This document shows positions 36,134 through 52,160 of a stretch of 57,452 nucleotides of DNA, one piece after another. Below the pieces are notes generated by a model. It searched no databases. It was not told the origin of the DNA and worked only from the letters and a program-made list of their open reading frames with translations. This DNA comes from Candidatus Nitrosopumilus sp. (GTDB lineage: Archaea > Thermoproteota > Nitrososphaeria > Nitrososphaerales > Nitrosopumilaceae): the NCBI RefSeq assembly GCF_028278985.1, contig NZ_JANQTA010000025.1:1-57452 (forward strand), in the 5' to 3' direction. Made by a program: the position numbers and the translations under genes. Position 1 is the first letter of the stretch. The number at the start of each line of letters is the position of its first letter.

Positions 36134-36268
36134 GTGAACATATTCCGAAAAAACTCTTCAAATTCAAGTTTAATCTGTAAAATTTGTAAAATGGAGTTTC
36201 TCGAACCTGAAAGAACTATGAGACATATGGTTAAAGCCCATTCAAAACCTCAAAAATCTAAAAAATAG
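36134..36268 (+). CDS. 44-residue C2H2 zinc-finger protein
   Basis: A small protein with one classical finger: SLICKICKMEFLEPERTMRH, then MVKAH, that is Cys-x2-Cys-x12-His-x4-His, with a basic C-terminus (SKPQKSKK). Such fingers bind DNA, RNA or protein. The frame is open from GTG at 36083, but a palindrome and TATA box at 36081-36111 place the promoter inside that extension. GTG at 36134 is the better start and would be leaderless. It is followed after 4 bp by a membrane protein gene. Its finger resembles that fused to the NDH-2 enzyme at 37425. Confidence 0.65.
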   Translation: MNIFRKNSSNSSLICKICKMEFLEPERTMRHMVKAHSKPQKSKK

Positions 36269-36272
36269 GATT

Positions 36273-36932
36273 ATGGAACTTCTCAAAAATTTTTCCTTCA
36301 ATAAAACAAATACTTTCCTGGAATTTTCTATTGTGACAATTTCATTAATTTCAATTCTAGTTTTGATTAGGATCATTTCAAAATCTGTATTTGATGATAA
36401 TTGGATTGGTTCTTTGGGTATGGTTTCTGCAATTTTTGGTCTATTGTTATTTTTAGCAAAAAAAGAAAAACTTGGTTTTTTTGGACATATGTTCATCAGA
36501 CAAATTACAAAAAATTACCATGGTAAGAAAAAATGGTTCATTTACGCACAAACTGGATTCTTTTTGTCCATAGGACTACTGACTATCTTTAGTATCCATA
36601 CTGGAAATACTGAATTTGCTAATTTGAAAGAACAGGTGATTACCCACCTAAATTCAGAGGGCATGCTAATTGACTCTGAAATAAATTATGAAACTTTAAA
36701 CCAACTTTCATCTCAAATATCCATTGAACAACAAATACAATCTATAGTTAATCTACCATCTATTCTAATTGGAAACTTTGTTGTTTTCTCTGTAGTTTTA
36801 TCCGTCACTAACGAATTGTTAGGTGGATGGGTGATGTTTTTTTGGCAGGTAATGATTATTGAAACCATTGAAATAATCTGTTTTGTTTATTTTGCAAGAA
36901 AATATTTAAGATCAAACTTAATCCAAAACTAA
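36273..36932 (+). CDS. four-span membrane protein
   Basis: A 219-residue membrane protein with hydrophobic segments at about residues 18-35, 48-63, 88-108 and 160-182, and possibly a fifth near 188-208. An outer loop of about 45 residues lies between the third and fourth. No transport motif is recognised. It lies 4 bp after the C2H2 gene and shares its promoter with palindrome S1, so the pair may be a membrane sensor with a zinc-finger effector. That link is inference. Confidence 0.65.
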   Translation: MELLKNFSFNKTNTFLEFSIVTISLISILVLIRIISKSVFDDNWIGSLGMVSAIFGLLLFLAKKEKLGFFGHMFIRQITKNYHGKKKWFIYAQTGFFLSIGLLTIFSIHTGNTEFANLKEQVITHLNSEGMLIDSEINYETLNQLSSQISIEQQIQSIVNLPSILIGNFVVFSVVLSVTNELLGGWVMFFWQVMIIETIEIICFVYFARKYLRSNLIQN

Positions 36933-36942
36933 TCTTCAAATA

Positions 36943-37299
36943 TTAAGAATTTTTAGCTTTTAGAAATTCTTTCCATGCTTCTTTTTTATTTTTAATGGCA
37001 TCATCTAGTAACACTTTTGCCTCATCAATTTTTTCTTGATCTCCCGAACTTTTTGCTATTTTCCAAGTTTCTTTTGCTTCTTTCCATTCGCTAAAGGCTA
37101 TTCTGTATTTGTTAAATGCAATTTTAATTTCTTTATCTTTTTGTTCTTTGGATTCCTTGTCTTTTTCCGTTTGTGCTTCAGCCTGTTTTCTTGCTTCTCC
37201 ATTGTCTTTATTGTGATGGGCATCTACAGAAACAGAAATCGGATTTATTAACAGACTAATGGCAACCATGAAAATTAACAAATAAAATAATTTTTTCAC
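36943..37299 (-). CDS. exported Lys/Glu-rich coiled-coil protein
   Basis: A 118-residue protein starting, by my choice, at GTG 37299 (MKKLFYLLIFMVAISLLINP, a clear signal peptide ending near VDAHH). The mature part is highly charged and helical (KQAEAQTEKDKESKEQKDKE and ESKIAFNKY-like repeats of Glu/Lys/Ala). An open frame continues up to ATG 37356, but CATTATAG (37321-37328) is a TATA box for the GTG, and palindrome S2 covers the extra codons. The function is unknown; it may be a periplasmic-like spacer or metal-binding protein (HH at the mature end). Confidence 0.6.
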   Translation of the reverse strand: MKKLFYLLIFMVAISLLINPISVSVDAHHNKDNGEARKQAEAQTEKDKESKEQKDKEIKIAFNKYRIAFSEWKEAKETWKIAKSSGDQEKIDEAKVLLDDAIKNKKEAWKEFLKAKNS

Positions 37300-37335
37300 A
37301 GTAATGTGTTGATTTAATAATCTATAATGAAATGT

Positions 37336-37356
37336 ATGTCTGTTTTGTTTAAACAT
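37336..37356. promoter_or_regulatory. regulon palindrome S2 (exported coiled-coil gene)
   Basis: ATGTCTG, seven bases, TAAACAT. On the minus strand it is followed after 7 bp by CATTATAG, centred about 26 nt before the GTG at 37299. Confidence 0.5.
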
Positions 37357-37367
37357 AATTTTTGAAT

Positions 37368-37388
37368 AGATTTGTCCATTACAAACAA
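37368..37388. promoter_or_regulatory. regulon palindrome S3 (NDH-2 fusion gene)
   Basis: AGATTTG, seven bases, CAAACAA. TAAATTTTAATT at 37393-37404 follows and is centred about 27 nt before the ATG at 37425. Confidence 0.5.
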
Positions 37389-37424
37389 ACAGGTAAATTT
37401 TAATTCTAAATGATTGAATTTCTT

Positions 37425-38858
37425 ATGAAGGATATTTCATGTACTTACTGTAAAGAGACTTTTGAAACTGAATCTAGCTATTATTCTCATTATTTGACTG
37501 TCCATAATTCCAAATCTCCTTCTGTGAAAAAAATTCTAATCTTAGGTGGAGGCTTTGGGAGTGTTTCTGTCTTAAGAAAAATTGAAGAAAAATTTCGAGA
37601 TAATGATGTTGAAATCACTATTGTATCAGATGAAAATTTCTTCCTTTTTACGCCTATGTTGCCCCAGGTAGCCTCTGGATTACTTCATCCTAGTAGCATT
37701 ACCATGCCAATACGCTATTTCTGTAAAAAAGCAAAATTCCTACATGCAATAGTTGATTCTATTGATTTACAGCAACAATTGGTTACAATCCAGAGAATTT
37801 TTGACAATAAGGTCCATGCACTAGAGTACGATTATCTGGTAATTGGATTAGGTGGAAAAACAAACTATTTTGAAAATGAAAATTTGGAAAATCATTCTTT
37901 TCCTATGAAAACTATTGAGGATGCAATTGCAATTAGAAATCATATAATTTTGATGTTGGAGCAGGCTGCCCAAACAGGAAATTTTGAACTCCAAAGATCC
38001 CTTTTGACATTTGCTGTTGTAGGAAGTGGATTTTCTGGAGTTGAAACAATTGGCGAAATCAACGAATATGTCAAACGTTCAGTTGAAAAATCTTACCCCA
38101 GTATAAATCCTGAAAATATTAACATGATTTTAATTTCTTCTAAAAATAGGGTTTTAACTGAAATTAATGAAAAACTATCTACAACTGCAACAAGATATCT
38201 AGAAAAAAATGGCATTACTATAATGAAAAACACAAAGGCTGTGGATTCAGATGAAGACTCTGTTATTTTAGATAGTGGAGGAAAACTTTCATGCGCAACT
38301 CTCATTTGGACTGGAGGAATAATGTGTAATAATGTAATCTCTGAACTAAATTGTGAACACGGTAGAAATGGAAAATTAGTTGTAGATAGTAAATTAAATT
38401 TAAAAGATTTTACAAATGTTTTTGCATTAGGTGACTGCGCATTGATCAAAGATACTAAATTAGATTCATTTTATCCTTCAACTGCTCAACATGCAATCCG
38501 AGAAGGAAATTTGATTGCTGAAAATCTCAACAAATTAATCAATGATGATAATAATCTTAATGATTTTTCTTTTTCCAGTATGGGAAATATGGCAATTATT
38601 GGAAATAAATTTGGGATTGCAACTATTGCTGGGCACAATCTTAGTGGTTTTTCAGCGTGGATTTTATGGCGAATGTATTATTTGGCAAAAATACCAACTT
38701 TTGGAAAGAAACTAAAAATTGCTTTTGACTGGATGGTAGATGGTTTGCTCTTAAGAGATGTTACTCTAATTGGTAGTATAAAGAAGAAAACAATTCATTC
38801 AATCAACATTAATGAAAATGTCCCATCAATTAAAGAACAATTAATCTCTCAAAGTTAA
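37425..38858 (+). CDS. NDH-2-type NADH dehydrogenase fused to an N-terminal C2H2 finger
   Basis: A 477-residue protein. Its start, MKDISCTYCKETFETESSYY followed by SHYLTVH, is a complete C2H2 finger (Cys-x2-Cys-x12-His-x4-His). A two-dinucleotide-binding flavoprotein of the NDH-2/FCSD family begins at KKILILGGGFGSVSVLRKIE (FAD site). It has a second nucleotide site FAVVGSGFSGVETIGEI and the late FAD motif FTNVFALGDCALI. NDH-2 enzymes oxidise NADH and reduce quinone at the inner membrane face; the C-terminal hydrophobic helices (WILWRMYYLAK) fit membrane attachment. The ATG at 37425 is chosen from the TATA position; ATG 37410 is the alternative. The finger fusion is unusual. Confidence 0.85.
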   Translation: MKDISCTYCKETFETESSYYSHYLTVHNSKSPSVKKILILGGGFGSVSVLRKIEEKFRDNDVEITIVSDENFFLFTPMLPQVASGLLHPSSITMPIRYFCKKAKFLHAIVDSIDLQQQLVTIQRIFDNKVHALEYDYLVIGLGGKTNYFENENLENHSFPMKTIEDAIAIRNHIILMLEQAAQTGNFELQRSLLTFAVVGSGFSGVETIGEINEYVKRSVEKSYPSINPENINMILISSKNRVLTEINEKLSTTATRYLEKNGITIMKNTKAVDSDEDSVILDSGGKLSCATLIWTGGIMCNNVISELNCEHGRNGKLVVDSKLNLKDFTNVFALGDCALIKDTKLDSFYPSTAQHAIREGNLIAENLNKLINDDNNLNDFSFSSMGNMAIIGNKFGIATIAGHNLSGFSAWILWRMYYLAKIPTFGKKLKIAFDWMVDGLLLRDVTLIGSIKKKTIHSININENVPSIKEQLISQS

Positions 38859-39369: not shown

Positions 39370-39846
39370 TTATTTTATCAATAGAACTGGAACTGGAGAG
39401 TTTTGTGATATTTCTAACGATACGCTTCCAAGCATTAATTTTCTATCATTTCCATTACCTCTTGTACCCATGATTACTAAATCTGATTTTGATGCATAAA
39501 TTTGTGAAATAATTGATTGTGTTACTAATGAAGATGCAATTAGTATTGATTTACAAGGAATTTGACTCTCTGAAGCAATTTTTTTCAATTTCATATGTTT
39601 TAGTTTTATTTTTTTTAGTTTATTTTGTTCTAATACCGTTTGATGTGTATTAAATTCAAGAAAAGAGCTAGACATTAAATCACTGTGAATTACTGAAAGT
39701 AACAAAATTTCAGTTTCGTTGTTAAAATTCATGTTTATTGCATACCAAAATGCTCTTGTTGCTAAATCTGAATCATCAAATGGAACTAGAATTCTTTTAA
39801 ATAATGATTTTTGAATTTTTTTTGAATTTATTTCATTTACTAACAC
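39370..39846 (-). CDS. universal stress protein (UspA family)
   Basis: A 158-residue UspA-fold protein. The first strand FKRILVPFDDSDLATRAFWY is typical. The C-terminal VIMGTRGNGNDRKLMLGSVS has the full GxxG-x9-GS(V)S nucleotide-binding pattern, and PVPVLLIK ends the fold. Unlike the stress protein at 2128-2595 this one should bind ATP. TTTTAAAATT at 39866-39875 supports a leaderless ATG at 39846, with palindrome S5 just upstream, so it belongs to the same regulon as the chemotaxis genes. Confidence 0.88.
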   Translation of the reverse strand: MLVNEINSKKIQKSLFKRILVPFDDSDLATRAFWYAINMNFNNETEILLLSVIHSDLMSSSFLEFNTHQTVLEQNKLKKIKLKHMKLKKIASESQIPCKSILIASSLVTQSIISQIYASKSDLVIMGTRGNGNDRKLMLGSVSLEISQNSPVPVLLIK

Positions 39847-39882
39847 ATTATCTATTGAACTTTAAATTTTAAAATTCAGTGT

Positions 39883-39903
39883 ATGATTGTTTTAGACAAA
39901 GAA
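39883..39903. promoter_or_regulatory. regulon palindrome S5 (UspA gene)
   Basis: ATGATTG, seven bases (TTTTAGA, the same spacer as S4), CAAAGAA. It lies 8 bp upstream of the TTTTAAAATT TATA box of the stress-protein gene on the minus strand. Confidence 0.45.
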
Positions 39904-39912
39904 CATCTGGTG

Positions 39913-40404
39913 TTAATTTTTTTGTAATTTCTTCATTAATTCTAAATAGGTTGTAATCTGTGCATGTGTAGGCTCAATATCTTTCAAATTCTTAATATCT
40001 ACATTGAGTTTTTCTAATTCTTCATACACTGATGTGTCTTCAATTACACTTAGTAAGCTTTGTAAGCTAAATGGTTTTTGAAGCAATTCCACAACTTGTT
40101 TCAGTGTCTTTATTGATTCTCTGAGCGTATCTTCAACATATGCTGATGCAAACAGAATCCTTTGTTTTGGATATTTCTCCAAAATCTCTGATGCAATTTC
40201 AAGACCATTTTTTCCTGGTAACTGATAGTCCAAAATAACAATATCAAATGATGATGATTCAGAATTCTTTTCAATATTTTCAAAGTAGGTTTTTAATCCT
40301 GCCTCTCCATCTGATTCCATTAACACGTTATGGTTATTTTTTTCTAGGAAAATTTTGTACTCTTCTAAAAGGTCAATTTCATCCTCGACAATCAGAATTT
40401 TCAT
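39913..40404 (-). CDS. stand-alone response regulator
   Basis: A 163-residue receiver protein without a DNA-binding domain. Acidic pocket EDEID, phosphorylation Asp in IVILDYQLPGKNG, the switch residue in ILFASAYVED and Lys in LLQKPFS are all present. About 40 helical residues follow (EELEKLNVDIKNLKDIEPTH). It overlaps the upstream receiver gene by 4 bp. It is close to the receiver at 42380-42745 (both ASAY and LQKPF), so these two are paralogues. It likely exchanges phosphate with the neighbouring kinase. Confidence 0.88.
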   Translation of the reverse strand: MKILIVEDEIDLLEEYKIFLEKNNHNVLMESDGEAGLKTYFENIEKNSESSSFDIVILDYQLPGKNGLEIASEILEKYPKQRILFASAYVEDTLRESIKTLKQVVELLQKPFSLQSLLSVIEDTSVYEELEKLNVDIKNLKDIEPTHAQITTYLELMKKLQKN

Positions 40405-40814
40405 ATTCTCTTACTTTCCACTGTATTATTTATAATCTCTGTAGCAATCATTGATTTGTTCATAACTTTTTCTATACATTCCATTACATGATTAATCTTG
40501 AATGGTTTGAAAATTACAGCATCTGCATTTGATTCTTTCAATTTCTGATCAGTCTCTTGTGTAAGGTCTGCTGTCACCATAATTACTTTGGTTTGTGAAT
40601 TTGCCTCTTTGAGACTGTTTAGTAAATAAAATCCGTCAAATTCAGGCATCCATATGTCTGAAAATACAATATCTGGTTTTGTATCTTGAAATAATTTTAC
40701 TCCATCTTGACCATTGTATGCTTTACCTAACACTTCAATATCTCTCAATTTTAAAAATTCAGTAAACACTTCTACTGTGTCATAATCGTCATCCACAACA
40801 ATAGCTGATGTCAT
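40401..40814 (-). CDS. stand-alone response regulator
   Basis: A 137-residue CheY-like protein starting MTSAIVVDDDYDTVEVFTEF. The phosphorylated Asp is in IVFSDIWMPEFDG, followed by the switch Thr in VIMVTADLTQ and Lys in AVIFKPFKI. No output domain. ATG at 40814 is preferred over an upstream in-frame codon because the receiver fold begins there. AT-rich TATA-like sequence at about 40830-40840 and palindrome S6 lie upstream. It is divergent from the kinase gene. Confidence 0.88.
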   Translation of the reverse strand: MTSAIVVDDDYDTVEVFTEFLKLRDIEVLGKAYNGQDGVKLFQDTKPDIVFSDIWMPEFDGFYLLNSLKEANSQTKVIMVTADLTQETDQKLKESNADAVIFKPFKINHVMECIEKVMNKSMIATEIINNTVESKRI

Positions 40815-40846
40815 ATATTTATAGAATATTTTTATTTCAAAAAGAA

Positions 40847-40867
40847 TTGTTCTAAATTTTTGAACAA
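40847..40867. promoter_or_regulatory. regulon palindrome S6 (response regulator operon)
   Basis: TTGTTCT, seven bases, TGAACAA, a near-perfect dyad. On the minus strand it precedes AAATAAAAATA, a TATA-like stretch about 22 nt before the ATG at 40814. Confidence 0.5.
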
Positions 40868-40873
40868 ACAAAA

Positions 40874-40894
40874 GTGTATGTTTAATCTAAACAA
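40874..40894. promoter_or_regulatory. regulon palindrome S7 (histidine kinase gene)
   Basis: GTGTATG, seven bases, TAAACAA; the inner TGTTTA-ATC-TAAACA is also a perfect dyad. CAGTTATTC at 40896-40904 could be the TATA box for the ATG at 40928, the fourth codon of the frame. Confidence 0.45.
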
Positions 40895-40918
40895 CCAGTT
40901 ATTCATGTTATCTTAATA

Positions 40919-42388
40919 ATGATACATATGTTGTTAGCAATTTCAAGCGTGTCGCAATTTCGAATTGCTGTGTGTATCTCAATGATAATTCTGCTGTTAG
41001 GCACAGTTTCAACTTATACCATTTTAACAATGAATGAAATGAATCATACTTTACAATATAATTCTGATTATTCAAAACAAATTACAAATTTTGAAGAAAT
41101 TAAATCAAAATACGAATCACAAATACTAATTTTTAAATCTCTAAATATTGAGGATACCTCAAGTGAAATAGGGAATTTTTGGATATATAATACTGAAATA
41201 AAAAATAATTATTTCACATTAAAAAATTTCATTATTGATGATTCTAAAACTCTTGAATTTCTTCCCACTTCTTCATTCAGTACACTAGAACAGCAAATTT
41301 TTTCTTTTTATGAACTGCATTTAATTTATGAAAATACTGCGGCAAAAACTTTAGATCTCTATTACACAGATAACACTGCTTTTATGATTGAATTAGAAAA
41401 TTTAGAAAATCAAAATCTTCGTTTAATTAACAAGATTCATCAAATTGAAAAAATTTTGCAAACAATCCCTATTTCTTCCCAATTTTCAACTACTAGTTTA
41501 ATGGATGATTTTCAAATCTTTCAATGGGTTTTGATCTCTCTAGTTGGAATTATCACATTCATGCTTATTTTCTTTTTAAATAGGTCTAATCAAAATCTTA
41601 AAAATGAAATTAAGAAACAAACATCTAGCCTAAGTATTCTAAATCAAAAATTACAGAATATGGATAAAAAACGTAGCGAATTCATTTCTATTGCATCTCA
41701 TGAACTAAAAGGACCAATACAACCAATTTTTGGTTTTGTAGAACTGTCTAAATCTGGAATTATTTCTAAAGATGAGGCAATTGATGGTATTGACAATGTT
41801 GCACGGAATCTTGAAAATATTGCAAATAATGTTCTTGATTTAACAAAAATAGAAAATGATGAATTAGAACTAAATATTGAGAAACATAGTGTTCACAAAA
41901 TAATTAATGAGATTGTTAATTCTGTACGTTTTAATCCAAGCCTAAAAGTTCCGATTAATACTAGATTTGATGAAGATGTTGAACTAAACTTAGATAAGAC
42001 AAGAATCAAACAAGTACTTAGAAATATTTTAGATAATTGTATAAAATTTACCAATTCTGGCGAAATTCTTATTCAAACTTATTTGTTAAAAGAAGATAAA
42101 ATTTTCAAAATTACAATTACTGACACTGGACCTGAAATTCCAAATGATGTTTTACCTAACATTTTTGGAAAGTTTGTAACCAAAACTAGTAATAATGTAT
42201 CTGGATTTGGTCTTGGATTGTATATTTCTAAAAAAATTATTGATTGCCACAATGGAAAAATTACCGCAAGTAACCATATTGGTCAACCTGTTTTTGAGAT
42301 TTCATTACCTCTTTTATCATTTAAAGAAAATCAAATCATTAAACAGCTTGATTCAATTAAAGAAACTGTAAATTTAGAACTAGATTAA
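40919..42388 (+). CDS. membrane sensor histidine kinase
   Basis: A 489-residue kinase. A first membrane helix (residues about 12-35) is followed by an outer domain of about 165 residues with helical pattern, a second helix (WVLISLVGIITFMLIFFLN, near 205-224), a coiled coil, and the HisKA domain with the phosphorylated His in SIASHELKGPIQPIFGFVEL. The ATPase domain has the N box LRNILDNCIKF, DTGPEIP and GFGLGLYIS. No PAS or HAMP domain is seen. Receiver genes lie on both sides, transcribed away or toward it, so they are likely partners. The 3' end overlaps the receiver gene at 42380 by 9 bp. Confidence 0.92.
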   Translation: MIHMLLAISSVSQFRIAVCISMIILLLGTVSTYTILTMNEMNHTLQYNSDYSKQITNFEEIKSKYESQILIFKSLNIEDTSSEIGNFWIYNTEIKNNYFTLKNFIIDDSKTLEFLPTSSFSTLEQQIFSFYELHLIYENTAAKTLDLYYTDNTAFMIELENLENQNLRLINKIHQIEKILQTIPISSQFSTTSLMDDFQIFQWVLISLVGIITFMLIFFLNRSNQNLKNEIKKQTSSLSILNQKLQNMDKKRSEFISIASHELKGPIQPIFGFVELSKSGIISKDEAIDGIDNVARNLENIANNVLDLTKIENDELELNIEKHSVHKIINEIVNSVRFNPSLKVPINTRFDEDVELNLDKTRIKQVLRNILDNCIKFTNSGEILIQTYLLKEDKIFKITITDTGPEIPNDVLPNIFGKFVTKTSNNVSGFGLGLYISKKIIDCHNGKITASNHIGQPVFEISLPLLSFKENQIIKQLDSIKETVNLELD

Positions 42389-42745
42389 TTCTAAAATTTT
42401 TGTTAGTTCAAATGGTTTTTGAAGGAAAGATACTTTGTCTTTAAGTTTAGAATAATTTTTTTCTGTAGATATTGCATATGCTGATGCCAAAATTATTTTC
42501 TGGTTTGGATTCAATGATAAAATATCTCCTGCAACCTCTGCTCCGTTTTTCTTAGGCATGGAATGATCTAATAGTAAAACATCAAACGATTCAGAATTTT
42601 CTTCATTTAGACTTTTTTCATATTTTTCAATGCATTCTTGGCCATCATTGGCTATTTCTACTGCATAATCCTTACTTTCAAGAAGTTTTGCATATTGCAT
42701 TGAGGTAAATTTATTATCTTCAGCAACTAAAATGCGTTTTTGCAT
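42380..42745 (-). CDS. stand-alone response regulator
   Basis: A 121-residue receiver protein beginning MQKRILVAEDNKFTSMQYAK. The phosphorylated Asp is in VLLLDHSMPKKNG, the switch region is IILASAYAIS and the Lys is in FLQKPFE. It ends with the fold and has no output domain. Start at the ATG 42745, two codons after another ATG, because it fits the promoter spacing and the usual receiver start. Convergent with the histidine kinase gene, whose end it overlaps. Palindrome S8 is the most perfect of the series and lies just upstream. Confidence 0.9.
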   Translation of the reverse strand: MQKRILVAEDNKFTSMQYAKLLESKDYAVEIANDGQECIEKYEKSLNEENSESFDVLLLDHSMPKKNGAEVAGDILSLNPNQKIILASAYAISTEKNYSKLKDKVSFLQKPFELTKILELI

Positions 42746-42777
42746 ATTCATGACTTGGATTTGTTGTTAATCATATC

Positions 42778-42798
42778 TTGTTTGTTCACTTCAAACAA
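42778..42798. promoter_or_regulatory. regulon palindrome S8 (perfect copy)
   Basis: TTGTTTG, seven bases, CAAACAA, with outer C/G extending the perfect arms to 8 bp (42777-42799). It lies between the divergent receiver gene (minus) and the membrane protein gene (plus). On the minus strand ATATGATTAAC follows directly. Confidence 0.6.
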
Positions 42799-42859
42799 GA
42801 GATTTTATGATTTTCTTAGCTAAAACAGTTCGTTCAATTGTCACACATTATACCATATT

Positions 42860-43531
42860 ATGAAAATATCAATAAATAATCTAATGAATACATTTGACTC
42901 TGATAGATATGATGACTATGATTATGATTCAAAAGAAGAAAGTCAACTACTTCAAAAATTTAATGATTATGTAAATCTTGAAAAAGATATCAAAAAACAA
43001 GAATTTTTAGAAATTTCAGATAATTCAAAACCTGGAAAATTTGGAAAACGATTCATTGTTTCTGCAATGATCCAAGGTGCCATAGTTACTGGATTAACAA
43101 TAGCCCTTTTCATGAATCAACTCTTTGTTTTTAATGGAAATATTGAGAATATGTTTGAATTTGCCTTTACTGATAAATCTGGAATTTTTATTTTTGGTTT
43201 TCTACTACAAATTGGTCTTACAGCTGGATTAGCTACTACAGGATTATTCTATAATCATATTGAAACTAATTTGAAGAAAAGTTTTTCAAAACACAATACT
43301 CTACTATCATGGACTCATCTAATTGGAATCAATGTGTTTGGAAGTATAATTACATCATCCTTAATCTTTGCTGGAATTTCTACTAGTGCGTTATATCAAA
43401 CTGAACTTGGTTATCTACTAAAATCTATTCCAACCCTTGTCTACATTTCTGCAAGTGGTTTTGTAATTGTTTTAGGAATTGGAATTATTGGAACAGCATA
43501 TTTGCTATTGAGAAACAAAAGCACAGATTAA
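42860..43531 (+). CDS. four-span membrane protein
   Basis: A 223-residue membrane protein with a soluble acidic N-terminus of about 70 residues (DRYDDYDYDSKEESQLLQKF) and four hydrophobic segments, near residues 72-92, 112-136, 150-172 and 188-213. I do not recognise the family. It shares an intergenic region, and possibly palindrome S8, with the receiver gene, and resembles in layout the membrane protein at 36273-36932. Its 3' end overlaps the convergent beta-propeller gene by 4 bp. Confidence 0.65.
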   Translation: MKISINNLMNTFDSDRYDDYDYDSKEESQLLQKFNDYVNLEKDIKKQEFLEISDNSKPGKFGKRFIVSAMIQGAIVTGLTIALFMNQLFVFNGNIENMFEFAFTDKSGIFIFGFLLQIGLTAGLATTGLFYNHIETNLKKSFSKHNTLLSWTHLIGINVFGSIITSSLIFAGISTSALYQTELGYLLKSIPTLVYISASGFVIVLGIGIIGTAYLLLRNKSTD

Positions 43532-44898
43532 GATAGTGCACAAATTGGAAGAATATTCAACCAAATTTCAAATGGATTGGGGTTTTCAATATCTTTGAAA
43601 GGTACAAAATTTGTTTCAGAGCAATCAACTTTTTGTGGAATTTCATGTCCTTCGTCATTGTTTGTGTACATCATAGCAAGATCAACAGCCCAGACCGGCA
43701 CTTGGGCAGATTTAGGCTCAAAATTCTTCTTTTCCATATAATCTTCTATGAGTAATCGAGCAATTTCATTTCCATTTAGTTCTCCTGTAACTCCTATGTT
43801 TTGTAGTAATCCTGAAATCAAGTCGGTATCAAATTCCCTATTTGGAATTTCTGTTATTCCTTTTGCAACTTCAAAAACCAATTCATTATATTCCGAATTC
43901 TCACCAAGAATTTCATTATTCAAATCTGTTAAATCCAAACTATGTTCATAATTTATTGCAGAAATTGTATTTGCAATTGGATTTGTCACATATATTGTGT
44001 TAGAGTATATTGAAGTTGAAATAGCCTGAGGTGAATTATTTAGGGTAATAGTTTGCGTTTTAGCCGATTTTTCATCTATTAAATACAATTCATTAGTGTG
44101 CTCATTTGAAATAATTGTAATTCCATTAACTGGATTTGTTTCAATCTGCCATACCCCAGTAGGAATTGAAATTTTTTCTAATAATTTATTTGAATTTAGG
44201 TCAACTTTTGAAACAAAATTTGAATCCCAACTTGTAGAATAGAGTGTATTTGTATTTTTGTTAATTGAGATTCCCCATGATTTCATTTCAGGATGAATAT
44301 TGTTGACAATTTCATTGGTATCTCCATCAATCACATCAATTTTTTCTGAAGTTCCACTTGCTACATAAACCAAATTTGTATTCTCGTTAACTTTTACTGC
44401 CCATGGACTTGAAGAAATCTTAACTGTATTGATAATTTCTAATCTTTCTGTATCAAAAATGATCACATTATTGTTTAGGGTATCTAAAACATACAGTTTC
44501 CCATTTTGTTGATTAATATCTAAATCCCAAAGTGAATCTCCCAAATTCAATTTACTAATTAATTTCCCATTAATTCCATCAATAATTGTTAATTCTCCAG
44601 AAATTTTGTCCGTTACAAAAATTACATGTCTATTTGAATCAACAGTAATTTTTGTTGGATTTGCATCTTTGAGTATAATCAGATCTTTTGGAATAAAGTT
44701 CTCCGAATCAATTACTGAAATTGTTCCTGATTCAAAGTTTGGAATATACAAATTTCTTAAACCATAATCGATTTCAATATCTCTTGGAAATTCACCTACA
44801 ACAACTGAATCCTCAAATGCATCAGCGTAAGGCTGAATTCCAATAGCGAATATGCCTAAAGACAGTGACAAAATTAGTATGACACTACTGAAATTCAT
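43528..44898 (-). CDS. exported YVTN-type beta-propeller protein
   Basis: A 456-residue secreted protein. The signal peptide (ILILSLSLGIFAIGIQPYAD) ends near residue 27. About 310 residues of seven short propeller blades follow, each with a YV(T/A)- or LYV-like strand and an I(D/F)xxT or IDG turn (VFVTDKISGELTIIDGINGK, LVYVASGTSEKIDVIDGDTN, IYVTNPIANTISAINYE). The last 110 residues form a separate domain with two Cys (VDCSET, LPICAL). Surface propellers of this type mediate binding or electron-transfer contacts. CTATAG at 44921-44926 fits as TATA box, with a hairpin between it and the ATG. Confidence 0.8.
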   Translation of the reverse strand: MNFSSVILILSLSLGIFAIGIQPYADAFEDSVVVGEFPRDIEIDYGLRNLYIPNFESGTISVIDSENFIPKDLIILKDANPTKITVDSNRHVIFVTDKISGELTIIDGINGKLISKLNLGDSLWDLDINQQNGKLYVLDTLNNNVIIFDTERLEIINTVKISSSPWAVKVNENTNLVYVASGTSEKIDVIDGDTNEIVNNIHPEMKSWGISINKNTNTLYSTSWDSNFVSKVDLNSNKLLEKISIPTGVWQIETNPVNGITIISNEHTNELYLIDEKSAKTQTITLNNSPQAISTSIYSNTIYVTNPIANTISAINYEHSLDLTDLNNEILGENSEYNELVFEVAKGITEIPNREFDTDLISGLLQNIGVTGELNGNEIARLLIEDYMEKKNFEPKSAQVPVWAVDLAMMYTNNDEGHEIPQKVDCSETNFVPFKDIENPNPFEIWLNILPICALS

Positions 44899-44921
44899 GC
44901 CTAATTTTCGTTAAATTAGGC
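44899..44921. promoter_or_regulatory. 9-bp palindrome between TATA box and start of the propeller gene
   Basis: GCCTAATTT (44899-44907) and AAATTAGGC (44913-44921) are perfect arms around TCGTT. The left arm touches the ATG (44896-44898), and the right arm touches CTATAG. For a leaderless gene this is the position of a repressor operator covering the transcription start. Confidence 0.55.
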
Positions 44922-44972
44922 TATAGAAACGACGGAAAAATCTTGAAAAATCGACTTCCGATATGGCCGAAA

Positions 44973-45350
44973 TTACTTTGTTCTAAGGGCCTTGTTAAGG
45001 ACTAGTCCCACATTTCCTCTATCAAAAGGCTTTATGATGTAATCTCTAGCTCCTGATTTCATTGCATCTTGTACAATGTGTTTTTGTTCTACGGATGTTA
45101 CCATGATTACTCTAGCATTTGGATTGACTTTCATGATTCCTTTCAAAGCTTGAATTCCATCTGCTTTTGGCATGTTCACATCCATTGTTACTAAATCTGG
45201 TTTGTGTTGAATGTATTGCCTTACTGCTTCAACTCCATCTGGAGCTTCAACAATATCTGTTGCTATTCCATTTGATTTTAAAATATCTTTTAGAACTGTT
45301 CTCATAAATGATGCATCATCTGCAACTAAAATTTTGACTCCTTCACTCAT
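44973..45350 (-). CDS. cheY: chemotaxis response regulator CheY
   Basis: A 125-residue receiver protein, the usual CheY size. Residues: VADDASFMRTVLKDIL with the acidic pocket, phosphorylated Asp in LVTMDVNMPKADG, switch Thr in VIMVTSVEQ and Lys in YIIKPFDRGN. The context with CheA, CheB, CheR and the archaellum genes supports the assignment. In archaea phosphorylated CheY acts on the archaellum motor through CheF, no gene for which is seen here. It has its own promoter region, with palindrome S9 about 90 bp upstream. Confidence 0.93.
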   Translation of the reverse strand: MSEGVKILVADDASFMRTVLKDILKSNGIATDIVEAPDGVEAVRQYIQHKPDLVTMDVNMPKADGIQALKGIMKVNPNARVIMVTSVEQKHIVQDAMKSGARDYIIKPFDRGNVGLVLNKALRTK

Positions 45351-45438
45351 TTTTTCTACCCTGATTTTTAAAATTTATTTTAATTTGAACAGTTATTTTC
45401 ATATTTTGTTTATTCATCTTTTCTTAATATCTAAGAGT

Positions 45439-45459
45439 TTGTTTATGTCATACAAACAG
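45439..45459. promoter_or_regulatory. regulon palindrome S9 (cheY)
   Basis: TTGTTTA, seven bases, CAAACAG. On the minus strand AGATATTAAG follows within 8 bp. A transcript from there would have a leader of about 50 nt before cheY. Confidence 0.5.
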
Positions 45460-45462
45460 AAT

Positions 45463-46278
45463 CTATTTTGATATTTTTTGATAAATTCTTTCTTTAGGAA
45501 ATAGCAGTTCAAAAAAGTTACTTCCATTAGTTCCTCTCATTGATTCATCTTGTCCCAAAATTAAAATTCCATTTGGTTTTAGTGCCTCAAAAAATTTTTC
45601 ATATATTTTTTGATGGACTTCTTTGGGGTAATATATCAAAACATTCCTACAAAAAATAATATCAAATAATTTTCTATTTGTTTTTAGCATATCGATTTTT
45701 TCAAATTCAATCTTATTTTTAATTTCTTGTTTAACGTTGAATTTTTGATTTTCATCTTTTAGAAAATATTTTAACATTCTAGAACTTGATACATTCTCTA
45801 AATTGGTTTTTTCATAAATTCCTTTTTTAGAATGAATTATACCCTCATTATTGATATCAGTGGCATATACATGATATTTGATTTTAGATTTTGAAAACTC
45901 ATCAAGTAAAATTGAGATGCTATGGGGCTCTTCACCTGAAGCACTACCACAACTCCAGGCTCGAATTGAAGGATTTTCATTATTTTTTACTAAATTAGGA
46001 AGAATTTCATTTTCTAATTTCTCCCAAACAAGAGGATCTCTGAAAAATCTTGTTACATTAATCGAAAATGCTGCATAAAGTGATTTTGCCTCATCAAAAT
46101 CAGATGATAACGTTCTGAGATATTCTTCATAGTCTGAAATTCCAATTGATCTCATTCTATACATAATTCTTCTTTCAAGAAATGTTGGTTTAAAATTCTG
46201 AATACTGATTCCTGTCTTTTTGTAAACTTCATCAATTACAGGATCTAATTTTTGGATAATTGTTGAATCCATCATCAT
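45463..46278 (-). CDS. cheR: chemotaxis protein methyltransferase CheR
   Basis: A 271-residue CheR. It methylates glutamates on the receptor with SAM. N-terminal helical domain with FKPTFLERRIMYRMRSIG, then SINVTRFFRDPLVWEKLENE, the SAM motif IRAWSCGSASGEEPHSISIL, and IIFCRNVLIYYPKEVHQKIY followed by LILGQDES. The frame overlaps the end of cheC by four bases (ATGA), with three ATG codons in a row at the start. It is the last gene of the cheBACR unit. Confidence 0.94.
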   Translation of the reverse strand: MMMDSTIIQKLDPVIDEVYKKTGISIQNFKPTFLERRIMYRMRSIGISDYEEYLRTLSSDFDEAKSLYAAFSINVTRFFRDPLVWEKLENEILPNLVKNNENPSIRAWSCGSASGEEPHSISILLDEFSKSKIKYHVYATDINNEGIIHSKKGIYEKTNLENVSSSRMLKYFLKDENQKFNVKQEIKNKIEFEKIDMLKTNRKLFDIIFCRNVLIYYPKEVHQKIYEKFFEALKPNGILILGQDESMRGTNGSNFFELLFPKERIYQKISK

Positions 46279-47003
46279 TTGTCTCCTCCGCTAAAATTAT
46301 TTTCTGAATCCGTTTCTTCAGGAATTAAATCTGCAAGCAGATCATCTATTGCTGAATTTTCTCCACCCAGAAGATTGGTGTTGGAGTCATTTGCGTAGTC
46401 ATTACTGTTAATTTTTCTAGCTTCATTAGAAATCAGTTTTTTTGCGTGATCGGGATGCTGGATAATGAGCATATGGATTTCAGTGCCTGTTTCTTTTCCA
46501 GAAAGTAAAACATCTGTAATTATCGCATCATCTTTTGGATTTACAACATCACAAACAGGTTCTACTATAAGATCTTTAATTTCTCCTTCTTTGAATGTAG
46601 GTGTTGATAAATCAACTTTGAATCCGGTATTTTGTGATAGTGCATTGAAAAATGAACCTGTTAAAATATTTGCCACTTCTTGTAATGCTGATGTTCCCAT
46701 TTCATCAATCTCGTTAACTTCTGTTCCAAGTAATTTTGATGCAATTTTTATTCCATGATTTAGTTTTGTTGTGTATAGTAATTCAATATGTAAATCTCCT
46801 TTTCCATTTAATCTAACAGAGCACATTTTGATTTCATCTGATGGCATGCACTCATTTTTTAGAGAACTAGCTCCATCTTCTAACAATGATAATTTGTGCG
46901 TAATTGGCTCTTTTAGAAGAGTTGAAAGTGCATCACATGTTTTATCAGTAATAAAATCATTAAAAGTACCAGTTAATTTGTCAATTTCAGTCTGTAATAA
47001 CAT
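46275..47003 (-). CDS. cheC: CheC-type CheY phosphatase
   Basis: A 242-residue CheC family protein. The phosphatase helix is seen in GTSALQEVANILTGSFFNAL (Glu and Asn of the E-x3-N pattern). A second helix of this type, which typical two-site CheC proteins carry, is not clear, so it may have a single active site. The C-terminal 50 residues are an acidic tail (DDLLADLIPEETDSENNF) beyond the usual length of about 200. The start ATG has GGTGA 7 nt before it, overlapping the cheA stop. No cheD gene, the usual partner, is visible. Confidence 0.85.
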   Translation of the reverse strand: MLLQTEIDKLTGTFNDFITDKTCDALSTLLKEPITHKLSLLEDGASSLKNECMPSDEIKMCSVRLNGKGDLHIELLYTTKLNHGIKIASKLLGTEVNEIDEMGTSALQEVANILTGSFFNALSQNTGFKVDLSTPTFKEGEIKDLIVEPVCDVVNPKDDAIITDVLLSGKETGTEIHMLIIQHPDHAKKLISNEARKINSNDYANDSNTNLLGGENSAIDDLLADLIPEETDSENNFSGGDK

Positions 47004-47013
47004 CTTGATTCAC

Positions 47014-48561
47014 CTATTGAATTAATAGCGATGGATCAATTACCAAAGCTACTTTCCCATCTGGAAGTATTGTTGCATTTGAGAATAATTCTGAAGAATC
47101 ACTCTTGTCTAATTTTTTAACTACAATGTCTTGATTACTTTCAAATTCATCAACTACAAATCCATAATTTTTTCCATCATTTTCAATTATTACTACTGTT
47201 GTAGTTAATTTTTTGATTTGATTTGTATTTTTAATATCTAATAATTCACTTAGTCTAATTAATGGAATAATTTTTTCCCTAAGTTTGATAACCTCTGTTC
47301 CGTGTAATGAAATAATTTCTTCTTGTTTGATCTGAAGTGTAGTAGTAATGCTTGAAATTGGTAAAACAAACTTTTGACCTGCAACTACAACTAGCAGTCC
47401 TCTAATAATTGATAGACTCAAAGGAAGTGATAATGTCATGGTAGTTCCTTTTCCTTTTTCACTTGAAATTTTGACAGTTCCCCCTACAGCTTCTACCTGT
47501 GAGATAACAACATCCATGCCTACTCCTCTTCCTGAAATATCTGTGACTTCTTTAGCTGTAGATAATCCTGGTGCACCAATTAGCTGAATAGCTTCATCAT
47601 GTGTCATTTTTTTTGCTTCTTCTTCCGAAATAATCTTATTTTCAATAGCTTTTTGCTTTACCACATCTTCATCAATGCCTTTTCCATCATCTTCAATTGT
47701 TACAATGACATTTTCGCCTTTTCTTTCTGCTGTCAAATTTATTGTTCCCGCTTCATTTTTTCCATCTTCTATTCTTTTTTCAGGAGATTCAATGCCATGA
47801 TCAACACAATTTCGTAAAATGTGTAATAACGGGTCTGTAATTGAATCTAAAACACTTCTATCTAATTCAATTCCTGAACCGTCCATGTTCAAATTTACTT
47901 TCTTTGATAATTTTTGTGATGTATCCCTTACAGTTCTATTGAATCTGCTGAAAACTTGATTGATTGGTACAAGACGTACTTGCATTGATTGAAACTGTAA
48001 ATCTGTTATCAACCCATCTACCTCTGTTAAAACTTGTTTTGATTCTTCATAATTTTGATTTTCTATTGTTTGACCCAATCTCATTTTTGAGATTAACAAT
48101 TCTCCAACTAAATTCACCAATGAATCCAAATCTGACATTTTAACTCTTATAGTAGGAGATGATGTAGTAGTTTCTTTTAGCTGTATATTTTCTATTTCCA
48201 TTTCTGGATTTTCTAATTTTTTCAAATATGGAGTCAAATCAATTTTTAATTTTTCATTTGAAATCATCTGCTCTAAAAGATCTACACAAGTAAACAATGC
48301 TGTGGTGAGTGAGCTTGAAAGTTTGTCTTTTCCATTTCTTAAATTATCAAAAATATTTTCAATGTTTTTGCATAATTCTCTTGTATCATCATATCCCATT
48401 GTTGATGCCATACCTTTGATTGTATGTGCAGAACGAAAGATTTGATCTAAAAATGATCTCTCATTTGGTTTCTCTTCTAATTGTAATAATGTCTGATTAA
48501 TCATTTCAACATGCTCCAAGGCCTCAGATACATACATTTCTCGATAATTATTATCTGACAA
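47014..48561 (-). CDS. cheA: chemotaxis histidine kinase CheA
   Basis: A 515-residue CheA. The P1 domain carries the phosphorylated His in IFRSAHTIKGMASTMGYDD. Then come the dimerisation helices (VRLVPINQVFSRFNRTVRD), the ATPase domain with LLHILRNCVDHGIESPEKR, DDGKGID and GRGVGMDVV, and a CheW-like P5 domain at the C-terminus. The CheY-binding P2 domain is reduced or absent. No ATG is suitable; TTG at 48561 (MSDNNYREMYVSEALEHVEM) fits, with an 11-bp overlap with cheB. It takes signals from the soluble receptor through CheW. Confidence 0.94.
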   Translation of the reverse strand: MSDNNYREMYVSEALEHVEMINQTLLQLEEKPNERSFLDQIFRSAHTIKGMASTMGYDDTRELCKNIENIFDNLRNGKDKLSSSLTTALFTCVDLLEQMISNEKLKIDLTPYLKKLENPEMEIENIQLKETTTSSPTIRVKMSDLDSLVNLVGELLISKMRLGQTIENQNYEESKQVLTEVDGLITDLQFQSMQVRLVPINQVFSRFNRTVRDTSQKLSKKVNLNMDGSGIELDRSVLDSITDPLLHILRNCVDHGIESPEKRIEDGKNEAGTINLTAERKGENVIVTIEDDGKGIDEDVVKQKAIENKIISEEEAKKMTHDEAIQLIGAPGLSTAKEVTDISGRGVGMDVVISQVEAVGGTVKISSEKGKGTTMTLSLPLSLSIIRGLLVVVAGQKFVLPISSITTTLQIKQEEIISLHGTEVIKLREKIIPLIRLSELLDIKNTNQIKKLTTTVVIIENDGKNYGFVVDEFESNQDIVVKKLDKSDSSELFSNATILPDGKVALVIDPSLLIQ

Positions 48562-49606
48562 GTTTTTTGACCTCCTCTGTAATCTTTGAAGGAATATCAC
48601 TTAATGGGAGAATATGATCAGCTGCATCAAGATCAATCACAGCTTTTGGCATTCCAAAAATCACACAAGTTTCTTTATTTTGTACAATTGTATGGCCTCC
48701 TCTTTTCTTAATTGACTTCATACCAAATCCACCATCATGACCCATTCCTGTTAGAACAACACCTACCAAATTGGAGCCATAAACTTCTGATGCTGAAATC
48801 ATGGTCATATTTACAGAAGGTCTTACTCCGAATCTTTTTTCACTTGAATCCAAATGGACTTTTCTATTTTGTAGTACCGACATGTGGAAATCACCTGGGG
48901 CTATCAAAACTTGACCATTTTTGATAATGTCTCCTTCTTCTGCCTCTTTTACAAAGAATCCAGTATTGTTAGATAATCTTTCAGCAAATTGCTTCGTAAA
49001 TCCTTTTGGCATATGCTGAACAAGTAAAATTCCTGCATCCACATCTGTTGGTATTCCATTTAGCACAGTTTGGACTGTTCCGGGACCTCCAGTTGAAGAA
49101 CCAATCACAATTACTCTTTCTGATGTATCTGTTCTGGGTGTGGGTTTTGTTTTTGGTTTTAATGAATTTATTTTTTCTTGAATTAATTGAATAGGATCTG
49201 ATTTGTGTGCAATTTCTATTTTTGTAATTAATGCTTCTCTTAGTTTGTCTTTTTCTTTCATGTCTTGTGGGATTGCAACAAAATCAACCGCTCCATTTTC
49301 TAATGCATCTAAAACAAGTTTAGAACCATTTTGAGAAAAACTACTTACAATAATTGTTGGAATTAATGTTCCTGAATTTACCATATTTTCAATAAATGTT
49401 AGCCCATCCATTCTTGGCATTTCTAAATCTAATAAAATCACATCAGGGGTTTTTGCCGAAATTTTTGATAAAGCATCTTTTCCATCTATTGCAGTTGAAA
49501 CTACGTCTATCTCATCAATTGAAATGACATCTGTAAGATATTTTCTCATCAGATTGGAATCATTTACTATGCATACTTTGATAGGAATTACTTTTTGCTC
49601 TAGCAA
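48551..49606 (-). CDS. cheB: chemotaxis methylesterase CheB
   Basis: A 351-residue CheB with an N-terminal receiver domain (Asp in VILLDLEMPRMDG) and a C-terminal methylesterase domain. The catalytic Ser-His-Asp triad can be placed in VIGSSTGGPGTVQ, LVQHMPKGFT and LTGMGHDGGFGM. It removes methyl groups placed by CheR. The start is TTG at 49606 with GAGGGA about 8 nt upstream. It is first in the cheB-cheA-cheC-cheR unit. GATTATAAT (49676-49684) after palindrome S10 would give a leader of about 45 nt. Confidence 0.95.
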   Translation of the reverse strand: MLEQKVIPIKVCIVNDSNLMRKYLTDVISIDEIDVVSTAIDGKDALSKISAKTPDVILLDLEMPRMDGLTFIENMVNSGTLIPTIIVSSFSQNGSKLVLDALENGAVDFVAIPQDMKEKDKLREALITKIEIAHKSDPIQLIQEKINSLKPKTKPTPRTDTSERVIVIGSSTGGPGTVQTVLNGIPTDVDAGILLVQHMPKGFTKQFAERLSNNTGFFVKEAEEGDIIKNGQVLIAPGDFHMSVLQNRKVHLDSSEKRFGVRPSVNMTMISASEVYGSNLVGVVLTGMGHDGGFGMKSIKKRGGHTIVQNKETCVIFGMPKAVIDLDAADHILPLSDIPSKITEEVKKLVR

Positions 49607-49687
49607 TAAATTATTCCCTCTTTTGCAAAATCAGTAAATTGTAAAAATAGATCATAATTTTTAAATGAAAAAAGTAATTATAATCTG

Positions 49688-49708
49688 ATGTTTGTTTGCA
49701 TCAAACAG
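49688..49708. promoter_or_regulatory. regulon palindrome S10 (cheBACR operon)
   Basis: ATGTTTG, seven bases, CAAACAG; the arms TGTTTG/CAAACA are perfect. On the minus strand GATTATAAT follows three bases after the core. Confidence 0.55.
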
Positions 49709-49717
49709 ACTAAAATT

Positions 49718-49960
49718 CTATTCTTTTTCTTTCAATTCTTTTTGAACTTCATGGGCCCTAATTAATGAAATTCTTAGCTGCTCATACAATGTAGGATTGT
49801 TTTCTTCTTTAGCTTTTGCTTTTAGTTCTACCAACTCATCAACTAGTTTGTCAATATACTGTTTTCCCCATCCTGTATTTCTCTCTCTTGGTTTTGTACT
49901 AGGATGAAGATCAATTTCATCCCACATGCTGTATAAACTACTTCGAAATGATTGGCTCAT
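49718..49960 (-). CDS. 80-residue helical protein within the chemotaxis cluster
   Basis: A small charged protein starting MSQSFRSSLYSMWDEIDLHP. It has a predicted helical second half (QYIDKLVDELVELKAKAKEE and LYEQLRISLIRAHEVQKELK) that looks like a two-helix coiled coil. I do not recognise it. It sits between cheW and the cheB operon on the same strand. It could be a small adaptor of the chemotaxis system, in the place where other archaea encode CheF or CheD. TCTTAATTC about 28 nt upstream may be its TATA box; the 21-bp palindrome is not present there. Confidence 0.6.
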   Translation of the reverse strand: MSQSFRSSLYSMWDEIDLHPSTKPRERNTGWGKQYIDKLVDELVELKAKAKEENNPTLYEQLRISLIRAHEVQKELKEKE

Positions 49961-50016
49961 ACATTGTAGGTGGGATTAGTTGAATTAAGAACGATGGACA
50001 AAACGTATGATTTTGA

Positions 50017-50031
50017 TTTCCAATTTGGAAA
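50017..50031. promoter_or_regulatory. 15-bp palindrome upstream of the 80-residue gene
   Basis: TTTCCAA, T, TTGGAAA is a perfect dyad in the gap between cheW and the gene at 49718-49960. It does not belong to the 21-bp series and may be a separate operator. Confidence 0.35.
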
Positions 50032-50055
50032 AATGCTTCATTTTATGCACAAAAA

Positions 50056-50646
50056 CTAACTTGATGTCTCTTGGATTATTTTGTCAATTTCAGGAAGAAT
50101 TTCTTCATCGTTTTCAGATGATTCTACTTTTTCTTCTGTAATCTCTTCGTGATTTGCAGCCTCCAACTGTTCTTCTGAAATACCTTCGGATTCCTTTAGA
50201 AATTTTGATGCATCTAATAGAACTATCAAATTTTCTTCGGTGTTAACAATTCCTTTGATGTAGCTATTTTCCTCAAATGCTCCTGGAGGTGGGGATTCAA
50301 TATCGCTCATTGAAAATCGCATCACTTCGTTTACTTCATCTACAAGTAATCCAGTTAATGTATCATTTACATCAGCTACTAGTATTCTCTGTTTAGAATT
50401 ATCTGTATTCATACTTGATAATCCAATTTTATCATTTACATCTATGATTGGAATGATTTTTCCTCTAAGATTCATAATTCCTTTTACATATGATTTTGAT
50501 TTTGGAATTTCTGTAATTGCATCTACTGTTCTTATCTCTTTAACTTGTTCAATTGGAACTGCATAATTTCCTTTTTTAGCATCTTTTTCTGCTATAGTAA
50601 ATGTTACAACTTGCATTGTATCACTTAGAACAGTTTCTGTAGACAT
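50056..50646 (-). CDS. cheW: chemotaxis coupling protein CheW
   Basis: A 196-residue CheW that bridges receptor and CheA. The SH3-like double barrel is seen from VVTFTIAEKDAKKGNYAVPI, VKGIMNLRGKIIPIIDVNDK, TGLLVDEVNEVMRFSMSDIE and IKGIVNTEENLIVLLDASKF. After the core comes an acidic tail of about 45 residues (EEITEEKVESSENDEEILPE), not typical. ATG at 50646 is preferred to the TTG at 50664, because ATAATTATG (50670-50678) then lies at the leaderless TATA distance. Palindrome S11 is just upstream. Confidence 0.93.
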   Translation of the reverse strand: MSTETVLSDTMQVVTFTIAEKDAKKGNYAVPIEQVKEIRTVDAITEIPKSKSYVKGIMNLRGKIIPIIDVNDKIGLSSMNTDNSKQRILVADVNDTLTGLLVDEVNEVMRFSMSDIESPPPGAFEENSYIKGIVNTEENLIVLLDASKFLKESEGISEEQLEAANHEEITEEKVESSENDEEILPEIDKIIQETSS

Positions 50647-50678
50647 GAATTGATAATTGTTCAAAAGAACATAATTAT

Positions 50679-50699
50679 TAGTTTGTTCAAATTGATCAT
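50679..50699. promoter_or_regulatory. regulon palindrome S11 (cheW)
   Basis: TAGTTTG, seven bases, TGATCAT. One arm is weak. On the minus strand ATAATTATG follows at once and is 28 nt from the cheW ATG. Confidence 0.4.
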
Positions 50700-50771
50700 A
50701 ATAATTTCAAATCTAAATGATTCTCAATCAATATTAAAAAATTATTTACAAATAAATTAAAAATTTATTTT

Positions 50772-52160
50772 CTAAATATTGTTGGTAATGTTGATTTTAC
50801 CAGTTTTTAGTCTTTCAACTACTTCTTTCATATGAGGCTTTACAGGTTTTCCTTCATCCATGTTAGAACATGCCTCTTCAATTCCTATCATTACCATTAA
50901 TTCTGTAATTGGTGTACTTACAGCAGTGTATCCTTTGACATCATTATTATCATCAAATGATGGATTGATGACTGTTTTTACCCAATAAATTGAGCCATCT
51001 TTTGCCTTATTTCTTAGGTAACCTTGGAAAGTATTGCCTTTTGAAATTGTTTCAGCTAGTGATCTAAATAATTTCTCATCATGCCAGCCGGATTTCAACA
51101 ATCTTGCATTTTCTCCAATTACTTCTTCTTTAGGATATTTTGTAACATCCAAAAAGAATTTGTTCAGATAACTAAACATGTTATCTGAATCTGACATGGA
51201 AATAATTGAAGAAGAATCAAGAACTTCGGTAATTGCACTCAAAGTTTTCACTGAATTATTTGCATTTTGAAGAGTCTGGGTTTCTTTATCTTTAGCTTGA
51301 ACGATTTCTTCAAAACTTTTCAAATTTGTTTGTGCTACTGAAAGAATTTCTTCACTTGCTGCAGTAGCTTGCTCTGTTCCACTTGAAACTTGCTCGGTTG
51401 CTGCTGAAATTTCTTGCATTTGAGAAACGACTTCAGTAATTGATGCTGTAATGTCCTTGATTGATTCTAAAATATGAGTAATTACTTCATATGCATCCTG
51501 AACAACTGTATTTCCTTTTTCAATACTGTCTGTTGTTTTATTTGATGAATTTTTCAATGAACTAACTAGATCTGAAATATCTTCAGCACCTTTCTTTGAA
51601 TTTTCAGCTAATCTTCTTACTTCGTCAGCAACAACTGCAAAACCTCTACCTACATCCCCTGCTCTTGCAGCCTCAATTGCTGCATTTAATGCTAGTAGAT
51701 TTGTCTGCTCTGCAATTTGAGTGATGAATCCTGTCATATTATCAACTTTGGCAAGCTCATTTGCTAATTTTTTAACATCATTGGAGGATTCTGATACGAT
51801 TGATTTCATACTATCCATTTTTTCCATTCCCTTTTCTGCATCAGTACTGATGTTTTGAGTAATTTGTTCTGATTGACGCATCATCTCCATTGCTTTAACA
51901 GCATTTGAGGCAACGCCTTGAATAGCAGTTGAAATTGATTGAATTGATTGAGAAATCTCTTCTATGCCACTGGTTTGGCTTTTTGTGGCTGACTCTAGTT
52001 CATTTACTGTACCTTGTAGTTGTTCAGAAACTGCTACTGCTTCATCAAATGATTTTAGGACTTGGTTGGTTATATTTTCATCAGATTCATCTTTTTTTGA
52101 AGTTTCACTAGTTTTAATTTCATTTTGATTATCAAGAGATTCAATAGTTTGAATTGTCAT
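50772..52160 (-). CDS. soluble methyl-accepting chemotaxis protein with C-terminal PAS domain
   Basis: A 462-residue receptor with no membrane helix and no HAMP domain. The N-terminal 300 residues are the signalling coiled coil, with the conserved hairpin tip [20 protein letters not shown] then [20 protein letters not shown], and methylation-type Glu/Gln pairs on both sides. Residues about 325-435 are a PAS domain ([20 protein letters not shown], then [17 protein letters not shown] and [20 protein letters not shown]), like that of Aer, which may bind a flavin or heme and sense redox or oxygen. The order, signalling part first and PAS last, is less common. It is leaderless by TATA position, with palindrome S12 upstream. 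Confidence 0.92.

Follow-up and report, generated by a model that had tools for sequence, protein, structure and literature searches.

A C2H2 zinc finger at the N-terminus of the NADH dehydrogenase NDH-2 in ammonia-oxidising archaea

Results

The locus and its reading frame

The window, by which we mean the whole 57,452-nucleotide stretch of Candidatus Nitrosopumilus DNA analysed here, carries on its forward strand an open reading frame of 477 amino acids plus a stop (37425..38858) that joins a C2H2 zinc finger to an NADH dehydrogenase of the NDH-2 type. The original prediction had given this reading frame and its coordinates correctly. The frame is open from an in-frame ATG further upstream, at 37410, that is not conserved. 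The ATG at 37425 is the conserved start, with methionine at the equivalent site in orthologues of 65-69% identity. Nearly all of these orthologues have in common an upstream element, TTTGT-N7-AAACANACAGG and a T-rich stretch, which in the window reads TTTGT-N7-AAACANACAGGT before its T-rich stretch (37371..37402, forward strand) and stops about 23 nt 5' of ATG 37425. The element is a probable promoter region, and its distance from the ATG fits a short or absent leader. Directly past the finger the sole in-frame start codon is a GTG (Val34), a position occupied by a different residue in most relatives. Across 13 homologous pairs, pN/pS is 0.147 for the finger and linker codons and 0.149 for the enzyme body. 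Initiation at 37425 is thus supported on three counts: start positions and the upstream element are both conserved, and the finger is under purifying selection. The sequence comparisons show a genuine fusion that is maintained by purifying selection at the coding level. Conservation and selection also rule out a start after the finger and a frame error in the assembly, the two doubts that the original prediction had raised against itself.

The enzyme

Residues 35-477 make up a complete NDH-2. A Pyr_redox_2 region with the FAD- and NADH-binding domains (37530..38507, forward strand; Pfam PF07992, 2.6e-35) is followed by the membrane-contacting C-terminal NDH2_C domain (38583..38759, forward strand; PF22366, 2e-7, 31.5 bits against a cut-off of 27.7), and the best PDB sequence matches are NDH-2 enzymes (5e-47). 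The dinucleotide motifs are GGGFGS, with serine at the last glycine position, and GSGFSGVE (GxGxxGxE, residues 200-207). The published list of NDH-2 motifs comprises a quinone motif of the AQxAxQ, AQxAxR or APxAxQ type together with YD, WxxG and GD (PMC5299459); by that definition the quinone-site motif here is AQHAIR, of the AQxAxR type (38484..38501, forward strand), and YD, WTGG (for WxxG) and GD are also found. The protein is almost certainly an NDH-2 enzyme, as had been proposed.

Compared with known NDH-2 enzymes (PDB 4nwz, 9mqy and yeast 4g6g), the protein has the same two dinucleotide-binding domains, GxGxxGxE, WxxG, GD and AQxAxR motifs and NDH2_C domain, but differs in its N-terminal C2H2 finger, to which many homologues add an N-terminal domain of four transmembrane helices (4TM). 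Insertions are known in NDH-2s, as EF-hand or CxxC elements, the former proposed to regulate activity; they are located away from the N-terminus, between the GD motif and helix 7 (PMC5299459), and are thus of another kind and position than the finger. The C-terminal tail (38800-38855) contains PSIKEQL, conforming to a motif PS-[IL]-K-[ED]-x-L that is present in short finger forms and absent in the 4TM forms examined. The same genome encodes a second NDH-2 (C14:58735-60048), which is fingerless and 39% identical.

Architectures and distribution

Matches to the enzyme were found in 139 of 151 genomes of the family and 162 of 250 of the class, while a sample of the phylum gave matches from Nitrososphaerales and two weak ones; a scan of viral contigs returned one distant relative, which was left out of the analysis. 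Three architectures occur: finger-NDH-2 of about 480 amino acids (the window protein and its relatives), 4TM-finger-NDH-2 of 620-745 amino acids in families f1 and f3, and NDH-2 with no finger. Family f1 includes Nitrosopumilus and Nitrosarchaeum records, and f3 is probably Nitrososphaeraceae. The fusion, for which a search in other archaea had been suggested, is present in two families of Nitrososphaerales. In the literature searched, most subscription journals lying outside its coverage, no description of the finger-NDH-2 architecture was found, and as far as that literature shows it is an undescribed variant of a known enzyme.

In the long forms, hydropathy and positive-inside charge predict a cytosolic location for the finger, as for the N-terminus and loop 2. 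The finger lies 8-16 residues past TM4 wherever TM4 is called; in three sequences TM4 falls under the cut-off. One sequence tallied as a short form (L048) is a 4TM form interrupted by a stop. No transmembrane segment is predicted in the window protein, and no homologue of the 4TM domain was found in the window genome. Against the 4TM domain of the long forms the Pfam family DUF6789 stays below its gathering score (E 0.0037, 17.8 bits against 27.1).

Other families of the order encode stand-alone 4TM proteins that end in two C2H2 fingers (L102/L116, L112, L114, L115, L126 and L127); homologues of the 4TM domain with such an ending occur in families f4, f7 and f12. The membrane domain of L112 and L114-L116, weakly DUF6789-like, shares homology with that of the long NDH-2 forms (hhalign E 8e-18) and is likewise followed by a predicted cytosolic C2H2 finger, but a second finger stands where the long forms have NDH-2. 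By this homology the finger resembles the tail of a membrane protein.

The finger

The finger (CTYCKETFETESSYYSHYLTVH, residues 6-27, 37440..37505, forward strand) has the spacing C-x2-C-x3-F-x8-H-x4-H and a predicted beta-beta-alpha fold, and a 7-residue linker (37506..37526, forward strand) leads from it to the enzyme. A six-frame translation of the window contains the motif C-x2-C-x12-H-x3..5-H at just two places, this one and a stand-alone finger protein at 36134-36268. The fuller pattern C-x2-C-x3-F-x5-[hydrophobic]-x2-H-x3..5-H is satisfied, with tyrosine at the inner hydrophobic position. Taken alone, the finger reaches 22.9 bits (E 1e-4) with PF00096, short of the Pfam gathering cut-off of 25.2, and the C2H2 assignment is therefore based on the motif, the profile and the fold. 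The best PDB matches of a profile built from 21 homologous fingers are C2H2 finger proteins (top four whole-chain E 1e-14 to 1e-5), with DNA-binding fingers among the top sequence matches. AlphaFold2 folds the finger alone as E-E-H (beta-beta-alpha) with pLDDT of about 80-90, and the fold neighbours returned by VIA include C2H2 fingers, the best with an rmsd of 1.3-2 A and a Z of 3-4, which is low for so small a domain. Structure and sequence searches with the finger returned mostly C2H2 fingers. A full-length AlphaFold2 model, at pLDDT 35, was set aside. The complete Cys2-His2 finger that the original prediction had placed in the first 30 residues is thus borne out by motif, profile and fold, the last through the structure model that it had called for.

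The two cysteines, the phenylalanine and the two histidines are invariant across the 21 diverse homologous fingers (alignment A4), a set picked for motif match, so that close orthologues defined by the enzyme are the stronger test. Among these, frameshifts allowed for, the finger is present in all readable ones; a 66% identical sequence whose match begins at residue 35 and which has one stop (L079) stands outside that count. Orthologues in G093 (L014/L051), G101 (L021) and NORP47 (L005) had seemed fingerless, a reading we rejected: the finger is intact upstream of a frameshift, in another frame, and the frameshifts lie partly within homopolymer runs. Of 53 distinct homologue sequences, 50 have the first cysteine 31 residues from the Rossmann strand. 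In one 4TM-finger-NDH-2 outside A4 (L087), the second cysteine of the finger is replaced by histidine (CAIHDISFSRIDSYQKHIELVH).

The mean net charge of the finger is about -0.8 in short forms (range -4 to +2) and +0.2 in long forms (-3 to +4), averaging about +2 with the linker included. All 32 aligned long forms have an aliphatic residue two past the second cysteine, which the window finger (CTYCKETF) does not have. Long forms of one family contain FSRxDxYxKH and H-G-E-K-P stretches resembling those of classical DNA-binding fingers.

C2H2 fingers are considered largely eukaryotic and mostly linked to nucleic acids (PMC3541406). The present finger agrees with the classical type (PF00096) in its spacing, predicted fold and profile matches to solved fingers, but it occurs singly, has on average a near-neutral or acidic charge, and is fused to a flavoenzyme. 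Single C2H2 fingers are also known in archaea from ribosome-bound proteins (6skg_Bo and 9qf4_Bk, matched by our finger profile at E 2e-4 to 2e-3) and from the virus protein AFV1p06, a homologue of which was not found in Thaumarchaeota (PMC3541406). These, unlike the protein described here, are small and stand-alone, sit on ribosomes or bind DNA, and have no enzyme fusion.

Neighbouring genes and the upstream palindrome

The stand-alone finger to which the original prediction had drawn attention is real: a protein of 44 amino acids from a GTG start with a lysine-rich tail (36134..36268, forward strand), syntenic in three of eight compared relatives (L061, L077 and L117) and not found in L057-L060 or L004. 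Four nucleotides after it begins a conserved neighbour, a membrane protein with no Pfam match (36273..36932, forward strand). We considered this protein as a split-off 4TM domain and rejected it, as no homology was detected (hhalign probability 0.8%).

On the other side of the gene lies an island (39370..52160) of Usp, response regulators, histidine kinase, CheY, CheR, CheC, CheA, CheB, CheW and a PAS-MCP. The part adjoining finger-NDH-2 is syntenic in orthologues, and flanking order is kept around L057-L061. In one relative (G093, C1:388896-390463) CheA is in two pieces and the finger-NDH-2 of the same genome is frameshifted, which may reflect assembly errors or decay of the island.

The gene had also been credited with a regulon palindrome, likely the TGTTT-N5-AAACA at 37341..37355. 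The site is present, overlapping the possible 5' end of a divergent ORF (36943-37356), and the window has three copies of the motif (37341, 40879 and 49693) where 0.46 would be expected. The other two perfect palindromes (40879-40893 and 49693-49707) are intergenic, among signalling genes. L057, L058 and L061 have a copy at the intergenic position that corresponds to 40879, whereas the copy at 37341 is missing from orthologous promoters, and there is no genome-wide excess of the motif (17 sites against 15 for the reversed control). We therefore rejected TGTTT-N5-AAACA as a regulon signal here.

Ancestry of the fusion

In a tree of 81 NDH-2 cores, 4TM forms fall on either side of the midpoint root, which was used for drawing only, the root itself not being established. 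One supported clade within f1 holds nearly all short finger forms and many fingerless ones. The fingerless sequences form three groups in that clade, and one of these groups lies nested within finger forms (95/88). The simplest reading is that the ancestor was a 4TM-finger-NDH-2, that the 4TM domain was lost before the lineage of the window arose, and that the finger was lost repeatedly; fingerless members nested inside the family would fit an accessory module.

Discussion

The fusion of a C2H2 finger to NDH-2 is well supported, and from its context we infer a role for the finger. The enzyme would oxidise NADH and reduce quinone like other NDH-2s, while the finger, which we expect to bind zinc, would, stabilised by zinc, serve as a module for docking or positioning on the cytosolic side of the membrane. 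In the long and probably ancestral form, the aligned sequences place the finger between the 4TM and FAD domains at a fixed distance, and there it may act as a spacer or contact between membrane anchor and enzyme. In the lineage of the window, where the 4TM domain would have been lost, the finger may instead dock NDH-2 to a separate partner protein; since the window genome has no such domain, a membrane partner is hypothetical.

Membrane tethering, the single low-charge finger and the aliphatic residue after the second cysteine, a hint of protein contact in the long forms, all favour docking or positioning. So does a precedent among the structural neighbours, the C2H2 finger of EEA1 in complex with Rab5A (3mjh, Z 3.7). 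It is likewise a single finger used as a protein-docking element in a membrane-associated protein, but belongs to a eukaryotic endosome tether; the likeness is one of fold and possible role. The DNA-binding fingers among the profile matches, the classical stretches in some long forms and the missing aliphatic residue in the window protein count against this reading. On balance it seems probable that the finger serves mainly protein contact rather than DNA, and we lean towards an NDH-2 with a docking or positioning module. The docking module was one of two roles offered in the original prediction, and the position of the finger after TM4 in long forms and the fixed 31-residue spacing favour it.

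The main rival is that the finger is a metal- or thiol-dependent switch that turns the enzyme on and off with zinc level or oxidation of the cysteine pair, in a role like that of the NDH-2 EF-hand. A linker of fixed length, and purifying selection on the finger equal to that on the enzyme body, suggest that the two are tightly coupled, and there is a parallel in NDH-2s that contain an EF-hand, with a proposed regulatory role, or a CxxC insertion, though these insertions are not N-terminal (PMC5299459). The histidine at the second cysteine in L087 would be odd for a thiol switch. Classical C2H2 sites are, moreover, usually structural, and we consider a switch unlikely.

It is also conceivable that in motile Nitrosopumilus-like lineages finger-NDH-2 docks to or feeds the chemosensory machinery as an energy-taxis input. 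Synteny with a signalling island that encodes a PAS-MCP speaks for this, as does the co-occurrence of short finger forms with CheA: of 151 genomes, 16 have a finger-bearing short form and 13 of these have CheA, compared with 26 of the other 135 (Fisher 1.3e-6; presence lists assembled by hand). 4TM forms show no such association (2 of 16). In 20,000 permutations within genera, the observed count was never reached. However, the within-genus signal comes mainly from genera with a shared island, where finger-NDH-2 and the Che genes lie together (g1 and g14), and plain co-inheritance would account for it just as well. In g12 and g22 NDH-2 and CheA are encoded at separate places, but every genome has CheA, which leaves almost no contrast within the genus. 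We rate an energy-taxis input as quite improbable, and the narrower proposal that the finger docks NDH-2 near the chemosensory machinery, reporting NADH/quinone flux to the Che system, as slightly more so.

DNA binding by the finger, which would make the protein a redox-sensing transcription factor, is very doubtful. The C2H2 fold, some classical sequence features and the missing transmembrane segment in the window form are compatible with it, but there is only one finger, of near-neutral or acidic average charge, many homologues are tethered to the membrane by four helices directly N-terminal of it, and orthologous promoters lack the palindrome. For the redox sensing linked to regulation that had been suggested, no positive support emerged. 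Finally, an artefact of frameshift, wrong start or chance motif, which the sub-threshold Pfam score of the finger in a scan of the whole protein might suggest, is already refuted by comparative evidence, namely retention of the finger in all close orthologues, its pN/pS of 0.147 and the conserved upstream element.

One genome of an ammonia-oxidising archaeon has been described as having no complex I subunits NuoEFG (PMC4084955), and with NuoEFG missing, NDH-2 becomes a candidate route of NADH oxidation. In ammonia-oxidising archaea a C2H2 finger has thus long persisted within a respiratory enzyme, in two families together with a 4TM domain, and the short, 4TM and fingerless forms offer a natural experiment on its role.
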